DNA from: Fundicoccus culcitae
Lineage (GTDB): Bacteria > Bacillota > Bacilli > Lactobacillales > Aerococcaceae
Length of the DNA: 64,000 nt
Direction of reading: 5' to 3'
Assembly (NCBI RefSeq): GCF_024661895.1
Contig: NZ_CP102453.1
Coordinates: 1,860,001 to 1,924,000 of the forward strand
Positions 9,482-19,062 of this stretch are shown one piece after another. The stretch's first letter is position 1. Each line of letters starts with the position of its first letter. The translations under genes and the position numbers were made by a program. The notes under the pieces were generated by a model. The model saw nothing but the letters and a program-made list of their open reading frames with translations. It was not told the origin of the DNA and made no database searches.

Positions 9482-9520
9482 TGATAAATCATTTAAATAA
9501 ATTCCACTGCCACGACAACC

Positions 9521-9573
9521 AAAAAAGAGCTGAGCCTTTTTAAATAAAAATTTAAAAGCACTGAGCTCTTTTA
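9521..9573 (-). terminator. Intrinsic terminator after telA
   Basis: On the minus strand AAAAGAGCTCAG pairs with CTGAGCTCTTTT-like sequence (GGCTCAGCTCTTTTTT), with a second A/T-rich stem inside. It ends the VWA-XpaC-SBP-TelA operon. Confidence 0.8.
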
Positions 9574-9582
9574 GTTATTCTG

Positions 9583-10728
9583 TTAAAATTTAATGGTCTT
9601 CAATAAAGCGTCTTGTAAATCAGATTCTATTTTTTCTAATTCAATCGCGGCTTCAGCGCGAGCTTTTTTCGCATTTTCTTGAATTTCTAAACTTTCTTCA
9701 ATCGTTGTAATCAAATCTTCATTGACCTTTTTCAAGGTTTCAATATCGATGGTGCTTCGTTCAGACTCCTTGGTTACTTCTAAGGTATTTTGTTTCAAGC
9801 GTGCTGAGTTACGTTTAAGTAATTCATTCGTCGTATCCGAAACTTCTTTTTGCATTTCTAAGACACGACCTTGTTTTTCCATACCTAAAGCGATGACAAC
9901 TTGTGACTTCCATAATGGGATAGTATTATTAATTGCATCAGTTACTTTATCAACAAGTAGTTTGTCATTATTTTGAATTAACTTAATTTGTGGAGCTGTT
10001 TGAATTGCCATCGTTTTTGAGGTTTTTAAGTCATAAATTTTCTTTTCAAATCGATTAATTGTTTCATTAAAATCATTCACGACTTGAACAGCCATGGAAT
10101 CGCCACTGGCTTTTGCTTGTTCATATAATTTAGGTAACGTTTCGCCACGCATCTCAGCGATTTTCTCTTCACCTGCAACAATGTATAATTGCAATTCGTT
10201 AAAGTACTCAACATTTTTTTCGTATAGTTTATCAAACGTGCCAATATCTTTTAATAGTTCCATCCGCCCAGACTCTAAGGACGCTTGAATTTTGTCGATT
10301 TGACTTTCCATCACATCATATTTAGCTAAATACTTTTCAACGGAACGTTTTGCATTATTGAGAAAAGGAATTTTCGAAAGAAAGCCTCCTTCATCAATAT
10401 TGGCAATATCTAAATCACGGACTTTTAACATTAAATCCGACATCAGACTCCCTATCTCACCAACATCTTTGCTTCTGATTTCCGTCAAGATTTGATCGCT
10501 AAATTGGGCTAAGTTTTTTTGCGAATTACTGCCGTAAATACTTAACAATTGACTATCTTGCATATTTAACGACTGCTTAATTTCATCCACACGCATGCGT
10601 TCTTCGGGCGAAAGCGTTTCTACTTGGCGTTCCACTTCAGCAGTAATTTCTGTCGGGTCAATCTGGGCTTGGGCTTTTAGATTATTTTTCATTAAACTGT
10701 CCAGTGTAACTTCATTCTTTTCGCTCAT
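9583..10728 (-). CDS. telA: TelA-family toxic anion resistance protein
   Basis: The 381-residue, soluble, strongly helical protein matches the TelA/YaaN/KlaA family: long coiled segments (residues about 110-260), FLSKIPFLNNAKRSVEKYLAKYD, and a conserved middle with PLWKSQVVIALGMEKQGRVLEMQKEVSDTTNELLKRNS. The family is named for tellurite resistance, but its molecular role is not settled; an envelope-stress role has been inferred. It is the last gene of a four-gene operon. TelA next to XpaC is common in Firmicutes; the two binding-protein-like partners here are not. Confidence 0.85.
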   Translation of the reverse strand: MSEKNEVTLDSLMKNNLKAQAQIDPTEITAEVERQVETLSPEERMRVDEIKQSLNMQDSQLLSIYGSNSQKNLAQFSDQILTEIRSKDVGEIGSLMSDLMLKVRDLDIANIDEGGFLSKIPFLNNAKRSVEKYLAKYDVMESQIDKIQASLESGRMELLKDIGTFDKLYEKNVEYFNELQLYIVAGEEKIAEMRGETLPKLYEQAKASGDSMAVQVVNDFNETINRFEKKIYDLKTSKTMAIQTAPQIKLIQNNDKLLVDKVTDAINNTIPLWKSQVVIALGMEKQGRVLEMQKEVSDTTNELLKRNSARLKQNTLEVTKESERSTIDIETLKKVNEDLITTIEESLEIQENAKKARAEAAIELEKIESDLQDALLKTIKF

Positions 10729-10764
10729 CTGTGTCGTCTCCCTTTATAGTTATTCTAACCCTAT

Positions 10765-11823
10765 TTACTTAACGGCTTCCATTAACAACAACATCGTTTC
10801 TATATCCGGCATTGGCATTATTTGTGTTACCTCAGAAGCTAAGCCCGGAATATCATAATTGGATTCATTACTTGCCCCGGATACAACCGTTCTAAATCCA
10901 TGTTCACGCCAAGCCAAGTCTTGAACTTGTGGATCCAATAAAGCATCAATTAAAACTTCACTTTGATCGGTCAAGCCAATTAATACGTGCGAAGACCAAA
11001 CCGTTGGTTCAGGGTATAAAATAACAATTTGATCACGAACTTGTTCATAAACATCTGGCTGTATCTTAGAAAACTCTAGTAGTTGATTTTCATATCCAGC
11101 GATAATCGGATATGCGCCAACCCCTTGGCGTAAAAACTGATTAAACATATCAGACGAAGAAGTTTGCATAAAACCAATAGCTTGATAAATGTCTCGAATC
11201 TGCGGGAGAATGGCATCAACAGTTGATGTATTCACTACCTGATTATTATTTAGACTATTGGCTAATAGACCTAAGAACATATTCCCAGAGTTAGATGCAT
11301 TGGGGTCCGTTGTGTCTACTAGAACATTTCCATACAATTCCGGAATACCAATATCTGCCCAAGATGTTTCATTCGCTATCATTTCGGCTAACTTAACCAT
11401 ATTGACATAATGCACCCCGTCACGCACCGTTACGACACCCTCTTGTTCAAGTGCATCGGTCACTAAACGACGTGAATACAGGACAATCGGAGTGTTTAAA
11501 ACAATATCATCTTCGACTGAAGGGCGGTTTAACTGTTGGTAAAGCTCTAAAGCCAATTGACTTGATGGGAATAAATAATCTTGACCTTCAATGTCTCCTT
11601 GAACCATATCAAAGGAGCCATCGATACGATAATTTAACGTTATCCCATACTCATCTTTGATATAATCTTGAAACTCAGGGTTACTAAACAAACCTGATTT
11701 TTCACCGCCTAAAAAACCATTCAGTTCCACTTGAGTTGGCTGATTACCTTGAAAGACGGTATAAACGACGGCTGTTACAATTACTAAAGCTAAAACAATC
11801 AAGCCCCATAAACGTGTTTTCAT
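10765..11823 (-). CDS. Membrane-anchored extracellular solute-binding-like protein
   Basis: The 352-residue protein has one N-terminal hydrophobic helix (residues 5-24, no Cys) and an extracellular domain that looks like a type II periplasmic binding fold. The signs are an early GFLGGEKSGLFSNPEFQDYI, DTTDPNASNSGNMFLGLLAN, and a hinge region GAYPIIAGYENQLLEF. It overlaps the XpaC-like gene by ATGA, so the two are translationally coupled. No permease or ATPase of an ABC importer is nearby, so it probably senses or tethers rather than feeds a transporter. Ligand unknown. Confidence 0.6.
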   Translation of the reverse strand: MKTRLWGLIVLALVIVTAVVYTVFQGNQPTQVELNGFLGGEKSGLFSNPEFQDYIKDEYGITLNYRIDGSFDMVQGDIEGQDYLFPSSQLALELYQQLNRPSVEDDIVLNTPIVLYSRRLVTDALEQEGVVTVRDGVHYVNMVKLAEMIANETSWADIGIPELYGNVLVDTTDPNASNSGNMFLGLLANSLNNNQVVNTSTVDAILPQIRDIYQAIGFMQTSSSDMFNQFLRQGVGAYPIIAGYENQLLEFSKIQPDVYEQVRDQIVILYPEPTVWSSHVLIGLTDQSEVLIDALLDPQVQDLAWREHGFRTVVSGASNESNYDIPGLASEVTQIMPMPDIETMLLLMEAVK

Positions 11824-12434
11824 GAATTACCGCCTCCTAAACGAATCGTTTTTTCGAGTAATTCTGTTTCAACTTCTAAAGCCATCATTTGATCTTTGTA
11901 ATAATTATCGCGTTGTTGGGCAAAAACATGTGTGAGTAAATCCAGCGATTCTTCAGTCCGTTCGGTAATCAAATTAAATTTATCGGCAGACACATTAGCT
12001 TTTTTTAGATGCAAGTAATTGCTCATTATTTTATTGGCGGTAGGTAAATAATAACTTAGAAAATGTCGAGATGATGAAATATCTTTTGGTGCTCCTTCTA
12101 AGTAATTTAATATATCTTGAGCAATTCCGCTTAAAGCTTTTGATTTTTCCCCTATCGATGGGTTTTTAATTCCTTCAGCTAACTGTGTCATTTGCTTAAC
12201 CTCAGTCTCAGCTTCTTGGTAAATAGCGGCTAATTCTTGCCCATTTGCTAAACGTTCTAATTCAATGTCACCAATTTTCAATACCGGTTTAGTTATCATA
12301 AATACGCCTAAGAAAATGGCAACGGCCAAAACAATGGTTAAGATGAGAGGCCAATCTAAGACAAAAAACATGATTAAGAAGGCAGCAATCGAAATCACCA
12401 TGGCTAAAAAATTTTGTTTGGCTTGTCCTTTCAT
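11820..12434 (-). CDS. xpaC: XpaC-like membrane protein
   Basis: The 204-residue protein has two adjacent membrane helices (about residues 10-48) and then a helical cytoplasmic domain: LKIGDIELERLANGQELAAIYQEAETEVKQM and a C-terminal coiled stretch. This is the layout of XpaC/YceH-type proteins (the name refers to hydrolysis of 5-bromo-4-chloroindolyl phosphate; the biochemical role is unclear). It begins 2 bp after the VWA gene stop and ends by overlapping the next gene, within the telA operon. Confidence 0.7.
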   Translation of the reverse strand: MKGQAKQNFLAMVISIAAFLIMFFVLDWPLILTIVLAVAIFLGVFMITKPVLKIGDIELERLANGQELAAIYQEAETEVKQMTQLAEGIKNPSIGEKSKALSGIAQDILNYLEGAPKDISSSRHFLSYYLPTANKIMSNYLHLKKANVSADKFNLITERTEESLDLLTHVFAQQRDNYYKDQMMALEVETELLEKTIRLGGGNS

Positions 12435-12435
12435 A

Positions 12436-14061
12436 TTAGTTATATCCTTTCACTTGTTGGAATGCTTCAATCAAATTCGTGCGACCATCAAACACTCTAG
12501 CACGGGTCAACTGAGCGATTTGACTTAATTCACTATCTGAAGCTGAGCCAAACATGATTGAGAAAACAGGAACATCCATTCCAAAGGTATTGTATACTTC
12601 TTTCAAGTCATTAAACACTTTATTCCCATTGGGCATTCCATCCGTTAAAACGACAATCGCCGGATTATAGTCTTTTATACCTTCGGGGTAATAATCTTGA
12701 TTAATAATCGTTAAAGCTTCAATAATCCCTTCATACATATAGGTTGAAGATGATAATGGATAACCTTCTGCCTTTTTGTACAAAGCCTCAAGCTCATTTG
12801 AATTTCCAACGGCAGATTCTACCCCTAACACTTCATTTCCAAAAGGGATTATATATGTAAGATCATCTGCCGTTCCTAATAATAGGTTGGCTTGGGCATT
12901 TTCAGGAATTAATACTTCTTCTAAGGCTGCCATCATTTGATCGTAACCTTCCCCCGACATACTACCCGAGAAGTCCAAAACATATAGGGTTAGAGCGGGC
13001 TTTTTAAATTCCGCTTGATATAAGTTCAGTGCTTCCATAATCACATCTGATTGTGGCCATCTGATAGGGGCCAGGACGCGATCGATGTCGACACCCCAGT
13101 CAGATCGAAAGACCGTCTCGTTTTCAGGACGAATCGTTCCGTAAGCAGAGCGTTTCCCTGTTTTTTCAATTTCGTTTTGTGCTTCATCACTCAATAGATA
13201 AGTTTGAAAACTTAGAAAAGCTTCTTCCATTTCATCATCATTATGATCAACGTAAGCCAATGGAGAATCACTAATAGAAAGACCATCGACAGGATAAACC
13301 ATATATAAAGGTTCTTCATTTTGCTTTTCTAGCTCAATATTTGTTTGTATGATTAAAGTTTCATAGTTAACCATCGCATCATAGTCACCCGCTAAAAATA
13401 GATCCACCAGCCAGTTGGAACTCCCAGATGAACGGTTAACCCCTGATAATAAGGTTGTAATTTGTTCACGAACGTTTTCATCCGCTAAATCTTCTGAAGT
13501 AATTCCTTCCTCTTTTCCGGCGATTGCTGTTAAAAATCCAATATAAGCTGATGCACCTGAATTCGACTGCGTCGCTGATGTCATAGCAAAATTTAATTGA
13601 TCATTTTCAATTGCCTCAATAATATCGGCAATAGACACATCTTTATCTTTAAAGCCTAATTCTTCAGCCAATGACTCTTTTATTCCAAAAACAACTGGAG
13701 AAATAGAGGTTGTCTGTGAATGATTAAGCATTCTGTGCGTATCGCCCAATGTTAGCCAAATTGAACTAGCTGGCCAAACCGCATCATATTTAACTTCTCC
13801 ACTTTGTAGTAAACGCATAATATCAAGCGATCCTAAATACTCTATCGAAATATTTTGTTTGTTTTCATGAGCATAGGCTTCTATAATAGGTTCTAATTCA
13901 GCGTTTTCGGAACCTGCAACAATTGATAAGGTCGAGCCATTATATTGAGTGACTTCAAAATCACTACTTGAACTAGAAGGAGTCGTTACTTCTTCATCCC
14001 CGCAGGCAGCTAAAAACAAGATACTAACTAGTAACAACAGGACAGACCATTTCGCTTTCAT
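12436..14061 (-). CDS. Lipoprotein with solute-binding domain fused to a von Willebrand factor A domain
   Basis: The start is the ATG at 14061, six bases after AAGGAGG. A lipobox LAAC puts the lipid-anchored Cys at residue 20, followed by a Ser/Thr linker. Residues about 40-310 form a binding-protein-like domain (GSTLSIVAGSENAELEPIIEAY, SATQSNSGASAYIGFLTAI). Residues about 355-541 form a VWA domain with a complete MIDAS: DFSGS at 363-367 and TDG near 473. It should sit outside the membrane and bind a ligand and a protein partner through a divalent metal. It heads the operon with xpaC and telA. Ligand and partner are unknown. Confidence 0.8.
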   Translation of the reverse strand: MKAKWSVLLLLVSILFLAACGDEEVTTPSSSSSDFEVTQYNGSTLSIVAGSENAELEPIIEAYAHENKQNISIEYLGSLDIMRLLQSGEVKYDAVWPASSIWLTLGDTHRMLNHSQTTSISPVVFGIKESLAEELGFKDKDVSIADIIEAIENDQLNFAMTSATQSNSGASAYIGFLTAIAGKEEGITSEDLADENVREQITTLLSGVNRSSGSSNWLVDLFLAGDYDAMVNYETLIIQTNIELEKQNEEPLYMVYPVDGLSISDSPLAYVDHNDDEMEEAFLSFQTYLLSDEAQNEIEKTGKRSAYGTIRPENETVFRSDWGVDIDRVLAPIRWPQSDVIMEALNLYQAEFKKPALTLYVLDFSGSMSGEGYDQMMAALEEVLIPENAQANLLLGTADDLTYIIPFGNEVLGVESAVGNSNELEALYKKAEGYPLSSSTYMYEGIIEALTIINQDYYPEGIKDYNPAIVVLTDGMPNGNKVFNDLKEVYNTFGMDVPVFSIMFGSASDSELSQIAQLTRARVFDGRTNLIEAFQQVKGYN

Positions 14062-14094
14062 AAACATCCTCCTTACTCTATTTGGTCTAACTTA

Positions 14095-14266: not shown

Positions 14267-14304
14267 AAAAGCCTAGCTACCTCAAAAAAGGTAACTAGGC
14301 TTTT
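14267..14304 (-). terminator. Intrinsic terminator after the zinc permease gene
   Basis: AAAAGCCTAG and CTAGGCTTTT pair, with ACC/GGT extending the stem around an A/T loop. It closes the adcA-adcC-adcB operon. Confidence 0.85.
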
Positions 14305-14307
14305 ACG

Positions 14308-15129
14308 TTATTCTTGTATGCGCGCTTTTGAAAAGATACGATTCAAAATTGAGACTAAAATAAAGATAAAAACAAAACAAAGTGTGATTGAAGCACCAGG
14401 AGGCGTATCGTAATAAAAGGATAAGGTAATCCCACTAAATATCCCAATTAAATTAATGACTATACCAATTAAAATAGTTTGCGTAAAACTTTTTGAAATC
14501 TTTATCGCTGTCGCTGAAGGTATGACAATAAGAGCGGAAATTAGTAAGGCACCAATAATCGGCATCATTATAGAAATCGCTACACCTGTTATAATTGAAA
14601 AAGTAATTGACATAAATCTTACTGGCAAACCACTAGTATGGGCAGTTGCTTCATCAAAACTCAAAACATACAAAGGTCTTCTAAAGATAATGTATAAGAC
14701 AAGAATAATGATGGCTAAAATCACTAACATCCACACTTCTTGTTCAGTTATCAAAATAATGGACCCAAACAAATATTGATCAATTTTAAAATTACTCGAA
14801 TCAGGACTAAAGCTCATTAGCACTAAAGCAACAGCCATTCCCGTTGCCATCATCAAAGCTACGGATATCTCTGAATAATTACGGTAGGAAATACGCAAGT
14901 ATTCAATGGCAATCGATGCAAAAATAACAACAATTAATGTTGTTATCGTCGGATTTGTGCCCAATAGCACACCTAAAGCGACGCCAGCTAAAGATATATG
15001 TGACAGTGTATCGGCTAAAAGGGATTGACGTCGTAAGATAAGCAATAATCCAATTATGGGCGTGATAAAAGAGATGGCTATCCCTGCAATTAACGCGCGT
15101 TGGATGAAGTCATACTGAAACATCTCCAA
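14308..15129 (-). CDS. znuB: Zinc/manganese-type ABC importer, permease
   Basis: The 273-residue protein has about eight membrane helices and the ABC-3 permease family pattern, including ADTLSHISLAGVALGVLLG and SFDEATAHTSGLPVRF. It starts at TTG (15129) with AGGAGGG seven bases before, and overlaps the 3' end of the ATPase gene by about 40 bp. With the binding protein and ATPase it makes a zinc uptake system (ZnuABC/AdcABC); the Zur box upstream of the operon favours zinc over manganese. Confidence 0.88.
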   Translation of the reverse strand: MEMFQYDFIQRALIAGIAISFITPIIGLLLILRRQSLLADTLSHISLAGVALGVLLGTNPTITTLIVVIFASIAIEYLRISYRNYSEISVALMMATGMAVALVLMSFSPDSSNFKIDQYLFGSIILITEQEVWMLVILAIIILVLYIIFRRPLYVLSFDEATAHTSGLPVRFMSITFSIITGVAISIMMPIIGALLISALIVIPSATAIKISKSFTQTILIGIVINLIGIFSGITLSFYYDTPPGASITLCFVFIFILVSILNRIFSKARIQE

Positions 15130-15782
15130 GGAGAACCCTCCTCTCTTATTAAACGAATCTCACGGTCATAGTAGCCTTCGATTTCTTTATCGGCATGCGT
15201 CACCATTAAAATCGTTTTCCCATGATGCTTGACACTATGTTTTAATAATTTATAAAATTTTGTTCGCGAACCAACATCCATTCCCGTTGTTGGTTCATCT
15301 AATACAAATAAATCAGGGTCTAGGGCAAAGACTCTCGCAAGACTAATCCGTTGTTTTTGTCCACCAGACAAATCACCAATTTTTTTGTGGCGAATCTCTG
15401 TCATGCCTACAGATGCTAAGGCGCGATCCACATGTTCATAATCTTCTGCATCCAATTTTCGAAACCAGCGGTTTTTACTATATCGACCGGACTCTACAAA
15501 CGTTTGTACAGTACTAGGAAAGCCCGCATTAAAAGAAGCCACATCTTGTTGGACATAACCAATCGATAAAGGCTCACCTAAATGATTAACCTTAGCAAGC
15601 TTTATTTCTCCAGTGGCTGGTTTCAATAAACCAATGATATTTTTAATGAGTGTTGATTTAGCCGCACCATTTTCACCGGTTAAAATGACGAACTCACCTG
15701 TATCAATACTAAAATTGATATTATTTAACACTTTTTCTTGTTCATAATAAAATGACAAGTTTTTCACTTCAATTAATGCGAT
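15090..15782 (-). CDS. znuC: Zinc-type ABC importer, ATP-binding protein; start codon uncertain
   Basis: Walker A GENGAAKST, signature LSGGQKQR and Walker B LFVLDEPTTGMD mark an ABC ATPase of the zinc/manganese class. The start is unclear. An ATG at 15848 would place a 10-bp hairpin (15809-15835) inside the coding region and has no ribosome site. AGAAGGTG ends near 15789, and six bases later an ATC (15780-15782) would give ALIEVKNLSFYYE right after the initiator, matching homologues. GTG at 15791 is the other choice. Coordinates follow the ATC reading. The product energises the permease below. Confidence 0.8.
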   Translation of the reverse strand: MALIEVKNLSFYYEQEKVLNNINFSIDTGEFVILTGENGAAKSTLIKNIIGLLKPATGEIKLAKVNHLGEPLSIGYVQQDVASFNAGFPSTVQTFVESGRYSKNRWFRKLDAEDYEHVDRALASVGMTEIRHKKIGDLSGGQKQRISLARVFALDPDLFVLDEPTTGMDVGSRTKFYKLLKHSVKHHGKTILMVTHADKEIEGYYDREIRLIREEGSPWRCFSMTSSNAR

Positions 15783-15808
15783 ATTATTCACCTTCTGTAT
15801 TCTTATAA

Positions 15809-15835
15809 ATATGAACTCATTCGTAGAGTTCATAT
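15809..15835 (-). promoter_or_regulatory. Hairpin between the zinc binding-protein and ATPase genes
   Basis: ATATGAACTC and GAGTTCATAT form a perfect 10-bp stem with a 7-nt loop. It is not followed by a T-run, so it is more likely an RNA-stability or processing element than a terminator. Such hairpins often sit after the highly expressed binding-protein gene. Confidence 0.55.
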
Positions 15836-15849
15836 TCACTATACGCAAT

Positions 15850-16926
15850 TTATTTAGCTAATTCAATTAAATTATCCCGCATAATATCAAAGTAGTTTAT
15901 TCCTTGAGCTAATTCATCGGCTGTAACACTTTCTAATGTCCGTAGTGGACGTAACTCCGCATTATTAGCTTGTGCAACCGTCTGAGCTATCGAACTGCTA
16001 CTGGTTGGATCAACATAAATAACTTTAACATCATTTTCAACAACGAAATCTTGCATGGTAGCTATTTCTTGTGCACTTGGTTCTTGAGTTGTTGATAATC
16101 CAGTAATAGCAACTTGTTCTAAATCATAAGCATTTGCAAGATAGCCAAAAGCGGCATGTTGTACCACAAAGCGACGATCTTCACGGTCAGCTAAGGCTGT
16201 ACGGTATTCTTCATCGATTAAAGTTAATTCATCTACCAATGCTTGATAATTATTTTGGTAACCTTCCGCATTCGCTGGATCTAATTCAACAAAAGCATTT
16301 AAAACATTTTCAGCCTGTTGTGCATAAAACATAGGGTCTACCCAGGTATGTGGATCATAATTATGACTATGACCATCTTCTTCAGCACCATGATCATGGG
16401 CATTATCGTCTTCTTCATGAGCATGATCATCTTCCTCGTGGTCATGGTCGTCTTCTTCATGGGCCCCCTCTTCGTGGTCGTGCTCATCCGCAGCTTCTTC
16501 ACCTTCATGGTCGTGATCATCCGCGGCTTCTTCACCTTCATGGTCGTGAGTATCTGAACCCGTCAATAAAGTTAAACCTTCAGTTGATTCAACGATTTTG
16601 GTATTCTCAGTATTAATAACTGCTAATAAATCCTGCACAAAATATTCCATTTCATCATCTTGGTAAATAAATAAATCGGCATTTTGCACTTCGGTGACAT
16701 CACTGGCACTTATTTCATAATCGTGGGCATCTTGATTAGCCTCTAATAGCATGCTTACATTAGCATAGTCTCCCCCAATTTGTTCAGCTAAGAAATAGAC
16801 TGGGTAAAAGGTTGTCTTTACTTCTAATTTTTCTTGCGCTTTAACGCTAACTCCCATATTAAATGCAGACATCCCTACTAACATCAATGACAATAAACTG
16901 AACAAAAATTTCTTTTTCATATTCAA
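15850..16926 (-). CDS. znuA: Zinc-binding protein of ABC importer with a long His/Asp/Glu-rich loop
   Basis: The 358-residue protein has a signal peptide ending VKAQ without a lipobox Cys, then a cluster A-I binding fold: TTFYPVYFLAEQIGGD, QDAHDYEIS, a metal loop of about 70 residues (residues ~125-190) made of HDHEGEEAADD-type repeats, and YDPHTWVDPMF. The histidine loop is a hallmark of zinc-specific ZnuA/AdcA; the extra C-terminal ZinT domain of streptococcal AdcA is absent. It is the first gene of the operon, under a Zur box. How it is held to the cell without lipidation is not evident. Confidence 0.9.
   Translation of the reverse strand: MNMKKKFLFSLLSLMLVGMSAFNMGVSVKAQEKLEVKTTFYPVYFLAEQIGGDYANVSMLLEANQDAHDYEISASDVTEVQNADLFIYQDDEMEYFVQDLLAVINTENTKIVESTEGLTLLTGSDTHDHEGEEAADDHDHEGEEAADEHDHEEGAHEEDDHDHEEDDHAHEEDDNAHDHGAEEDGHSHNYDPHTWVDPMFYAQQAENVLNAFVELDPANAEGYQNNYQALVDELTLIDEEYRTALADREDRRFVVQHAAFGYLANAYDLEQVAITGLSTTQEPSAQEIATMQDFVVENDVKVIYVDPTSSSSIAQTVAQANNAELRPLRTLESVTADELAQGINYFDIMRDNLIELAK
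16490..16553. repeat. 36-bp tandem repeat coding the His/Asp/Glu loop
   Basis: Nearly identical copies of a 36-bp unit (GCTTCTTCACCTTCATGGTC plus flanks) encode successive HDHEGEEAADD/E segments of the zinc-binding protein; a more degraded continuation runs to about 16380. Such repeats can vary in number between strains. Confidence 0.7.
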
Positions 16927-17151: not shown

Positions 17152-18351
17152 TTATTTAAATTGATCTAGCCATTCAATAACTTGCCTAGGTGTATTTTTA
17201 GGTAGATGGTCTTTTAAATAATCCAATTGATTGCCTAAACTAAGATTCATAATAGATTGAATTTCTTTCAAACGTAAGTCTGTCCCATCAAGTTCAGCCA
17301 AAAGAATCCGGCGTAAAACTTCTGTATAGCTATGCGCTAAGGCAATAGTTAAAACGGCAGCCGTACTACCACTAATTAAACCTCCCGATACTGTTCCAAT
17401 TCCCGGAATTAATTTGAAGGCTGTACCGACAAAATACTTGCCAATCATTGTCGTTGTACCTGTGCCACCTATCCCCGCTAAAACACTCAGAATTTGAGCT
17501 TTATCTAAAGCTAGACCGAAAATAGCTGTTATATGTGCCAACATGGTAATTTGCATCGGAATTAATAAGGCTGCATCCGAAATGGGTACGGGCGTAAAGC
17601 CCACTCCAAAAGCAGTCGTCACATAGGATTTCGCCCAACGTTTAGCATTATCGACTTTACGTTGGATATCTATTTGTTGGGCATTGATAAAAGCCAAATG
17701 TTGTTCAGTCGGTAAAATTTCTAAGGTTTTATCAATCAATGTTTGTAAACCAAAGGCTTTTATCTGTTGATTGGCTTGAATTGAAAACGACTTAGCTAAA
17801 ACGGGTATAACCGCCTTTACCTCAATAGCTGGGGCTAATTGCTGAATATAAATCTCAAATGATTTATTTTCTGATCCGAGTGTTTGTGTTAGCACTAAAA
17901 TCACCGGTAGTTGTTGTGCTAAAGCCTGAATTAGATCTAATTCATACGGCTCTATGCGGGCCATGTTCGCATTTAAGCAATAGTAGACAATATGAATCGC
18001 TTCTTTGTCCCCCTTAGCCTTCTGTTGCTGAATTAAGTTGGATAAATCATTTACGACGGCCTGTTGCGATTCCGCTTGTAATTCCAAACCTTTTGTATCA
18101 TATAAAGTGAGTGGTATACCCTCTTTGGTTAATTTATCAACGGTTTGGGTAACAGGCATACCAACCCCTGTTGCAGCGATATTTTCTCGAAACAAAGCAT
18201 TAATTAAAGTACTCTTACCACTACCGGTTTTTCCAGCTACTAATATATTAATGGGTGGCATTTTTTCAATAGCCGTCTCTGTCTTCTTTAATAAATCGTC
18301 CGCCAATTGCTTATTTACATAATTTTTTTTGTTTTTACGCCAAAATTGCAT
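17152..18351 (-). CDS. Membrane-associated GTPase with C-terminal DUF697-like domain
   Basis: The ATG at 18351 (nine bases after GAGGGAG) is preferred over an upstream TTG at 18369 that overlaps the ribosome site. The 399-residue protein has a G domain with P-loop GKTGSGKSTLINALF and G3 DTKGLEL; the G4 position reads TQTLGS instead of NKxD, so guanine specificity is unproven. The C-terminal part (about 250-370) has hydrophobic segments with FTPVPISDAALLIPMQITML, GGTGTTTMIGKYF and KLIPGIGTVSGG, which fit DUF697. Role unknown; this class is linked to envelope functions. It follows the YugP-type protease gene by about 20 bp. Confidence 0.75.
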   Translation of the reverse strand: MQFWRKNKKNYVNKQLADDLLKKTETAIEKMPPINILVAGKTGSGKSTLINALFRENIAATGVGMPVTQTVDKLTKEGIPLTLYDTKGLELQAESQQAVVNDLSNLIQQQKAKGDKEAIHIVYYCLNANMARIEPYELDLIQALAQQLPVILVLTQTLGSENKSFEIYIQQLAPAIEVKAVIPVLAKSFSIQANQQIKAFGLQTLIDKTLEILPTEQHLAFINAQQIDIQRKVDNAKRWAKSYVTTAFGVGFTPVPISDAALLIPMQITMLAHITAIFGLALDKAQILSVLAGIGGTGTTTMIGKYFVGTAFKLIPGIGTVSGGLISGSTAAVLTIALAHSYTEVLRRILLAELDGTDLRLKEIQSIMNLSLGNQLDYLKDHLPKNTPRQVIEWLDQFK

Positions 18352-18372
18352 GGATGGGCACTCCCTCAAAAA

Positions 18373-19062
18373 TTAGTTACGGCGACGTGATATTAAAATA
18401 AAGCGTAGTAAGGTCAAAGCAGAGTTTAATGTTGCAGCGATATAAGTAAATGCTGCTGCATTTAATACTTTTTTAGCTGCTGGAAGTTCTTCTGCCGTCA
18501 CAAGTTGTTGATTTTCAAGCATCGTTAAGGCACGGCTGCTGGCATTGAATTCCACTGGCAAGGTTATTACTTGGAATAATAACACTAAGCCAAACGCAAT
18601 AATACCTAAATTCACTAATGAAAATATGTTTAACACCCAACCTAATAGCATCATAGGAACAGCTAATGACGAACCAATTTGTGCGGCTGGTGCAATTAAG
18701 CTTCTAAATTTCAAAAAGGCATAGCCTTCTTTATCTTGTAAGGCATGTCCTGTTTCATGGGCAGCAACCGCAATCGCAGCAATCGAGGTTTCATTGTAAG
18801 TTGATTGCGATAAACGTAAAACCTTGCTTCTTGGGTCATAGTGATCCGTTAAATGACCTGCCACCTGTTCAACAGCCACTTGATTTAAATCGGCTGATTG
18901 TAAAATTTGGCTCGCAGCTTGGCGTCCACTCATTCTGTTTTGAGATTCCATCTCATTGTATTTATTAAATGTTGATTGAACTTTGTATTGGGCATACATG
19001 ACAATAGCAGAACCAATTAAAACTAAAAATATTGTTGCGTCATATCCAAACATTAGGTTCAT
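18373..19062 (-). CDS. Neutral zinc metallopeptidase, YugP family
   Basis: The 229-residue membrane protein has an N-terminal helix, RMSGRQAASQILQSADL, the zinc motif HETGHALQ near residue 113 with a later conserved Glu/Asn-containing EFNASSRAL, and three more hydrophobic segments. This is the YugP (peptidase M-type, formerly DUF) pattern of membrane-embedded zinc proteases. Substrate unknown. It is the upstream partner of the DUF697-like GTPase gene. Confidence 0.85.
   Translation of the reverse strand: MNLMFGYDATIFLVLIGSAIVMYAQYKVQSTFNKYNEMESQNRMSGRQAASQILQSADLNQVAVEQVAGHLTDHYDPRSKVLRLSQSTYNETSIAAIAVAAHETGHALQDKEGYAFLKFRSLIAPAAQIGSSLAVPMMLLGWVLNIFSLVNLGIIAFGLVLLFQVITLPVEFNASSRALTMLENQQLVTAEELPAAKKVLNAAAFTYIAATLNSALTLLRFILISRRRN

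Follow-up and report, generated by a model that had tools for sequence, protein, structure and literature searches.

The window analysed here comprises 64,000 nucleotides, positions 1,860,001-1,924,000 of the 3.22-Mb single-contig genome of Fundicoccus culcitae, whose relatives by search were Aerococcaceae. At positions 9583-14061 of the window, on the minus strand, four packed co-directional genes encode a lipoprotein in which a solute-binding protein (SBP) domain is fused to a VWA domain (SBP-VWA, gene 1), an XpaC-like protein (gene 2), a second binding protein (SBP2, gene 3) and TelA (gene 4). We show below that these genes, hereafter the cassette, are one inherited unit, and they probably work as one machine that detects an extracellular signal and has its effect at the membrane. 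The tight coupling described in the original prediction, which had been made from this DNA without database searches, held: genes 2 and 3 share an ATGA overlap, and the gap between genes 1 and 2 was found to be 1 base instead of 2; genes 3 and 4 are separated by 36 bases. The ATG at 14061 is probably the true start of gene 1, as originally placed, because a well-spaced AAGGAGG precedes it by six bases; an alternative start lies at 14067. A terminator-like hairpin is predicted on either side, which suggests that the four genes are transcribed apart from their neighbours. The DNA upstream also encodes a complete znuABC-type transporter, at a distance of about 240 bases; it lies beyond the upstream hairpin and does not belong to the conserved gene set, so that the earlier statement that no ABC permease or ATPase is present holds for the operon, not for its surroundings.

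Gene 1 matched SBP_bac_11 (PF13531, E=3.9e-19) in its N-terminal part and VWA (PF00092, E=7.9e-6) in its C-terminal part. Its lipobox cysteine and the five residues of the predicted metal ion-dependent adhesion site (MIDAS), namely D365, S367 and S369 of the DxSxS motif, T442 and D476, showed no variation in any of 39 homologues, confirming the earlier description of a lipoprotein with a binding domain and a complete MIDAS. In the structure model (pLDDT 90.3), residues 41-358 resembled type II SBPs, with VIA Z scores of 24-26 to sulfate- and thiamine-binding proteins (sulfate-binding 5um2: Z 26.3, root-mean-square deviation (rmsd) 3.7, 287 aligned; thiamine-binding 2qry: Z 24.9), placing this domain among type II SBPs by both fold and profile. 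The best structural match of residues 355-543 was the VWA domain of an inter-alpha-inhibitor heavy chain (6fpz: Z 23.2, rmsd 2.0, 178 aligned). The pocket motifs GSE, GS, PAS, SNSG, SSGSS and NYE were near-invariant among 39 sequences. The C-terminus read KGYN or RGYN in 70 of 72 homologues; this near-invariant GYN (window positions 12439-12447) is possibly a docking tail.

SBP2 of the window matched no Pfam family, and a PDB sequence search with its profile also failed to place it; among the structure-based searches it was placed by fold comparison only. Its model (pLDDT 91.5) scored Z 23-24 to type II SBPs overall (2qry: Z 23.9, rmsd 2.8, 269 aligned), and the modelled fold thus assigns it to the same class. 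Profile-profile comparison showed it to be homologous, over its whole length, to the SBP part of gene 1 (hhalign 98.9%, E=1e-17). Hydropathy predicted one N-terminal membrane helix in 78 of 79 homologues and a lipobox was present in 0 of 79, indicating that SBP2 is, by prediction, a signal-anchored external domain, in line with the second anchored binding-like protein recognized originally. The motifs GSE/GGEK, GS, PAS/PSS, SNSG, SS and YE were common to the pockets of both binding proteins and near-invariant in 39 SBP-VWA and 43 SBP2 sequences. Based on the SNSG helix cap and the fold match to a sulfate-binding protein, our guess is that the ligand may be anionic; ferric-, thiamine-, polyamine- and sugar-phosphate-binding SBPs scored nearly equal to that fold match.

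Gene 2 encodes a PF10112 (Halogen_Hydrol) protein (E=6e-24) with two predicted N-terminal membrane helices followed by a helical cytoplasmic part, and it therefore shares with XpaC both the domain and the N-terminal helices, as had been proposed. PF10112 was matched by 24 of 24 cassette homologues, and simple hydropathy gave two clear helices in 51 of 75 XpaC homologues and one in the remainder. Gene 4 is a TelA (PF05816, E=3.4e-110, profile positions 1-331 of 332) in which hydropathy detected no membrane helix, consistent with the cytoplasmic protein expected. The predicted topology is thus two SBP domains outside, one lipid-anchored with a MIDAS VWA and the other held by a single helix, an XpaC hairpin in the membrane and TelA inside, which agrees with the layout drawn in the original prediction.

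For the conservation survey, 84,980 species genomes were scanned with SBP2 alone and the best 80 of 350 relatives were examined as loci; they were chosen as the best matches to the query, and distant forms are under-sampled among them. The order SBP-VWA > XpaC > SBP2 was kept in all 76 loci with enough upstream sequence. It was followed by TelA in 53 of the 80 loci and in one more with a split first gene, while TelA came first in 2 loci, was not adjacent in 20, and 4 loci were cut upstream by contig ends; counted over the whole set, TelA followed in 57 loci. Neighbouring genes overlapped or were separated by near-zero gaps, the XpaC-SBP2 junction being an ATGA overlap in 48 of 77 cases. No inserted gene was found in the 80 cassettes; specifically, the permease and ATPase of an ABC importer were present neither in the operon nor as insertions, and an ABC ATPase signature lay within 3 kb of the cassette in 5 of 80 loci. 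Nine further matches from whole-genome searches showed the same gene order as far as their sequence extended, and distances between loci correlated across the four proteins (rho 0.71-0.91; Mantel 0/200). Since the order was conserved from 50% to about 27% protein identity, chance is excluded, for the sequences compared, as its source. The two binding-protein genes therefore co-occur with xpaC-telA in other genomes, and the four-gene set originally envisaged proved to be one conserved unit with TelA as its less fixed member. A conserved fifth gene was considered and rejected, as the flanking genes differ between lineages.

Because TelA was absent beside about 20 of the 80 loci and its presence there implies no fewer than 8 changes along the tree, it is the least fixed part, and the tight core consists of SBP-VWA, XpaC and SBP2. 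The cassettes without adjacent telA comprise L071, L073 and about 18 further loci. Among 15 genomes with a TelA-less cassette, 12 had TelA elsewhere, and no TelA match was found anywhere in the genomes of L071, L073 and L083. The idea that the missing TelA had merely been relocated was rejected, the placeable TelAs elsewhere in these genomes falling outside the cassette clade. An Oscillibacter genome (G690) carried two cassette copies (L188 and L193), neither with an adjacent TelA. In addition to the cassette, the window's genome has a household XpaC-TelA pair at a contig position of about 3.139 Mb. TelA was detected in 67 of 76 Aerococcaceae genomes, with two copies in exactly the 9 cassette carriers; nearly all fetched household TelAs of this family adjoined an XpaC, and the cassette TelAs formed one clade apart from household TelAs (Shimodaira-Hasegawa-like approximate likelihood-ratio test, SH-aLRT, 90).

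As an intact set, the cassette turned up in many Gram-positive bacteria, among them Aerococcaceae, Peptoniphilaceae, Lachnospiraceae, Oscillospiraceae and Paenibacillus-like bacteria. Within Bacilli it is rare (9 of the 76 Aerococcaceae genomes); a sample of 398 genomes from across the phylum contained 4 carriers, and 5 were found among 291 genomes of the class of an Oscillospiraceae carrier, with the carrier itself counted. In a tree of three concatenated proteins, Aerococcaceae were interleaved with Peptoniphilaceae/Tissierellia in one starred clade, which suggests that the cassette may have been transferred horizontally as a unit. Base composition gave no signal of recent foreign origin (GC content 0.372 for the cassette vs 0.373 for the window).

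Two more distant forms were observed. In the divergent genomes of L046 and L047, the order was the same at protein identities of 26-32% for SBP-VWA, 28-29% for SBP2 and 23-26% for TelA; their small membrane protein had no BLAST match to XpaC, and a Pfam search with that of L046 was also empty. In Paenibacillus-like bacteria, a triad consists of a two-helix membrane protein of 245-250 residues without a Pfam family, then an N-terminally anchored SBP-VWA and, after a gap of about 20-35 bases, a divergent TelA. This SBP-VWA, first met among weak VWA matches, belongs to another SBP-VWA family (SBP_bac_11 E=7e-15, VWA E=1e-17). Neither the membrane protein of L046 nor that of the triad qualified as a PF10112 protein. 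Thus an extracellular SBP-VWA combined with a membrane hairpin and TelA is found repeatedly, with differing membrane parts. One genome (G448) carried the four-gene cassette plus the triad form, the latter with at least SBP-VWA and TelA.

Table 1. Features of the cassette and its surroundings in the window, and loci of the triad form
Feature	Position	Strand	Basis or remarks
Gene 1, SBP-VWA lipoprotein	12436..14061	-	541 aa from ATG 14061; open reading frame (ORF) of 543 aa from ATG 14067
Gene 2, XpaC-like PF10112 protein	11820..12434	-	PF10112 E=6e-24; hydropathy
Gene 3, SBP2, signal-anchored second binding protein (predicted)	10765..11823	-	hhalign to gene 1; fold comparison; hydropathy
Gene 4, TelA, 381 aa, cytoplasmic (predicted), cassette-type clade	9583..10728	-	PF05816 E=3.4e-110; tree
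Lipobox cysteine, C22 of the 543-aa ORF	14002..14004	-	same residue in 39/39 homologues
Type II SBP domain of gene 1, aa 44-338	13054..13938	-	PF13531; fold comparison; near-invariant motifs
VWA domain of gene 1, aa 356-543, complete MIDAS and C-terminal GYN	12439..13002	-	PF00092; fold comparison
SNSG pocket motif of SBP2, aa 177-180	11284..11295	-	identical in 43/43
Terminator-like hairpin between znuABC-type operon and cassette	14267..14304	-	17-bp stem, -25.6 kcal/mol, z=-6.3
Terminator-like hairpin 3' of telA	9510..9582	-	-25.1 kcal/mol, z=-5.2
Paenibacillus-like triads	L195:6523-10121, L196:6979-10600, L198:7409-11027		
SBP-VWA and TelA	L197:7046-9902		no two-helix gene called

The closest known system is the household pair, in which a PF10112 protein likewise adjoins a PF05816 TelA (B. 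subtilis xpaC-yaaN, L. lactis llmg_1115/1116 and Listeria lmo1966/1967); it differs from the cassette in having no binding proteins or VWA domain and in its TelA, which falls in a separate clade. In B. subtilis, xpaC-yaaN belongs to the core sigma-W regulon (PMC3498285), and in L. lactis llmg_1115/1116 are part of the CesSR regulon, their deletion partly impairing growth when the cell is overloaded with membrane proteins (PMC3139573). PMC12791056 cites a Listeria telA mutant as 4-fold more sensitive to nisin and 2-fold more sensitive to tellurite. Membership of an envelope-stress regulon is published for the household pair only, and the stress part of the trans-envelope sensing or stress system originally suggested fits this regulation. 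Ter-type stress systems (TerB/TerC/TerD/TerF, TelA) also combine TelA with a VWA protein at the membrane (PMC7824862), whereas the VWA domain of the cassette is predicted to be extracellular and is fused to an SBP; no TerB, TerC or TerD was found by Pfam in the operon or in the window genes scanned next to it. In HptASR of S. aureus, the extracellular SBP HptA signals to a membrane partner and feeds no transporter (PMC8774646). That system pairs an SBP-like sensor with a histidine kinase, whereas the cassette has two SBPs and a VWA domain, and neither a histidine kinase nor a response regulator was found in the four genes or in the window genes scanned beside them. As an analogy only, the eukaryotic alpha2delta subunit likewise places an anchored extracellular MIDAS VWA and a small-molecule-binding domain so as to act on a membrane partner. 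Its ligand-binding part consists of Cache domains where the cassette has the SBP fold, the partners are unrelated, and the sequence match between the VWA domains (E of about 6e-6) reflects the common VWA fold. We found no literature on the four-gene set or on SBP or VWA proteins with TelA or XpaC, although the central comparative-genomics paper on TelA was not covered and may contain an earlier description. The individual families are known, and we regard the set as a new form of XpaC-TelA that comes with an extracellular module of its own for sensing or adhesion.

We consider the chances about even that the cassette is the XpaC-TelA envelope-stress pair fitted with a sensor for an extracellular ligand. 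The SBP clefts would close on a small ligand that probably carries an anionic group; such a group is proposed because the Ser/Gly-rich SNSG helix cap resembles those of sulfate- and ferric-binding SBPs. The metal site of the VWA domain might then grip SBP2, XpaC or a partner outside the cell, and the closed complex would alter the state of XpaC via a transmembrane contact between SBP2 and XpaC. XpaC could in turn recruit or release TelA, which may form or remodel a structure beneath the membrane, making the membrane more resistant to antimicrobial or ionic damage; a cassette without telA may use the household TelA. Several points weigh against this sensing scheme. TelA was not beside about 20 of the 80 cassettes and 3 of the 15 such genomes had no TelA match at all, so that output via TelA cannot be universal. 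SBP2 has few intracellular residues, and any relay across the membrane would therefore have to run through putative helix contacts. The upstream regions compared had no obvious common motif by eye, and inspection for inverted repeats likewise gave no operator common to the relatives, the AAGATAAagTTATCTT repeat of the window not being retained. A broader claim, on which we lean towards doubt, is that the cassette and its distant forms represent a class of their own among transmembrane signalling or effector systems, free of kinases, ABC transporters and ATPases, in which paired extracellular SBPs, one of them with a MIDAS VWA, would act through a membrane hairpin on a cytoplasmic TelA layer, with membrane proteins that have no recognizable sequence similarity to one another.

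The same architecture could instead serve as a structural or adhesive envelope complex, in which the VWA MIDAS and the SBP folds tie a cell-wall, surface or host polymer to an XpaC-TelA submembrane layer with no sensing involved. VWA domains with a complete MIDAS typically bind protein or matrix, as the match to the inter-alpha-inhibitor heavy chain recalls, the lipid and transmembrane anchoring of both SBPs suits a scaffold, and a published proposal has TelA forming structures beneath the membrane (PMC7824862); however, near-invariant pocket motifs in both paralogues fit small-molecule binding better than pure scaffolding, and we regard this explanation as unlikely. Rather less probable is an orphan uptake system, in which SBP2 and SBP-VWA would supply ABC permeases encoded elsewhere, with XpaC and TelA as accessories. 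Both are indeed type II SBPs like those for sulfate, thiamine and ferric iron, and a znuABC-type importer adjoins the cassette in this genome, but a strong hairpin sets that importer apart, its association with the cassette is not conserved, and the lack of inserted permeases or ATPases in the 80 cassettes, together with the scarcity of ABC ATPase signatures nearby, argues against uptake.

Patchy presence and horizontal spread would also suit a module that excludes or wards off phage, plasmids or bacteriocins, a role suggested earlier for Ter systems, whose proteins have been linked to phage exclusion (PMC7824862). The single PADLOC match was weak (OloB, E=0.006), the flanking genes are variable, and the surroundings gave no sign of a defence island, though no systematic scan for one was made; we hold such a role to be improbable. 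Least credible to us is a trap for toxic oxyanions, with the SBPs binding tellurite-like oxyanions outside and TelA conferring resistance inside. The Pfam name of TelA, the SNSG helix cap and a sulfate-binding protein among the top structural matches all point that way, but the tellurite name is historical, the TelA effects cited in PMC12791056 are stronger for nisin than for tellurite, and nothing links the pocket to tellurite.

TelA and XpaC are widespread proteins of the envelope-stress response, and dedicated extracellular binding domains offer a handle on how they act: the ligand of the SBPs, if found, would reveal the trigger of the system and make the role of TelA testable. If true, the sensing scheme would add a transport-free and kinase-free use of SBPs in Gram-positive bacteria.

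As for the neighbouring genes, the znuABC-type metal ABC transporter occupies window positions 14308-16926, and its ZnuA carries a long His/Asp/Glu-rich insert. Further upstream of the cassette, a GTPase with a DUF697-like C-terminal region (17152-18369) adjoins a putative neutral zinc metallopeptidase gene (18373-19062).

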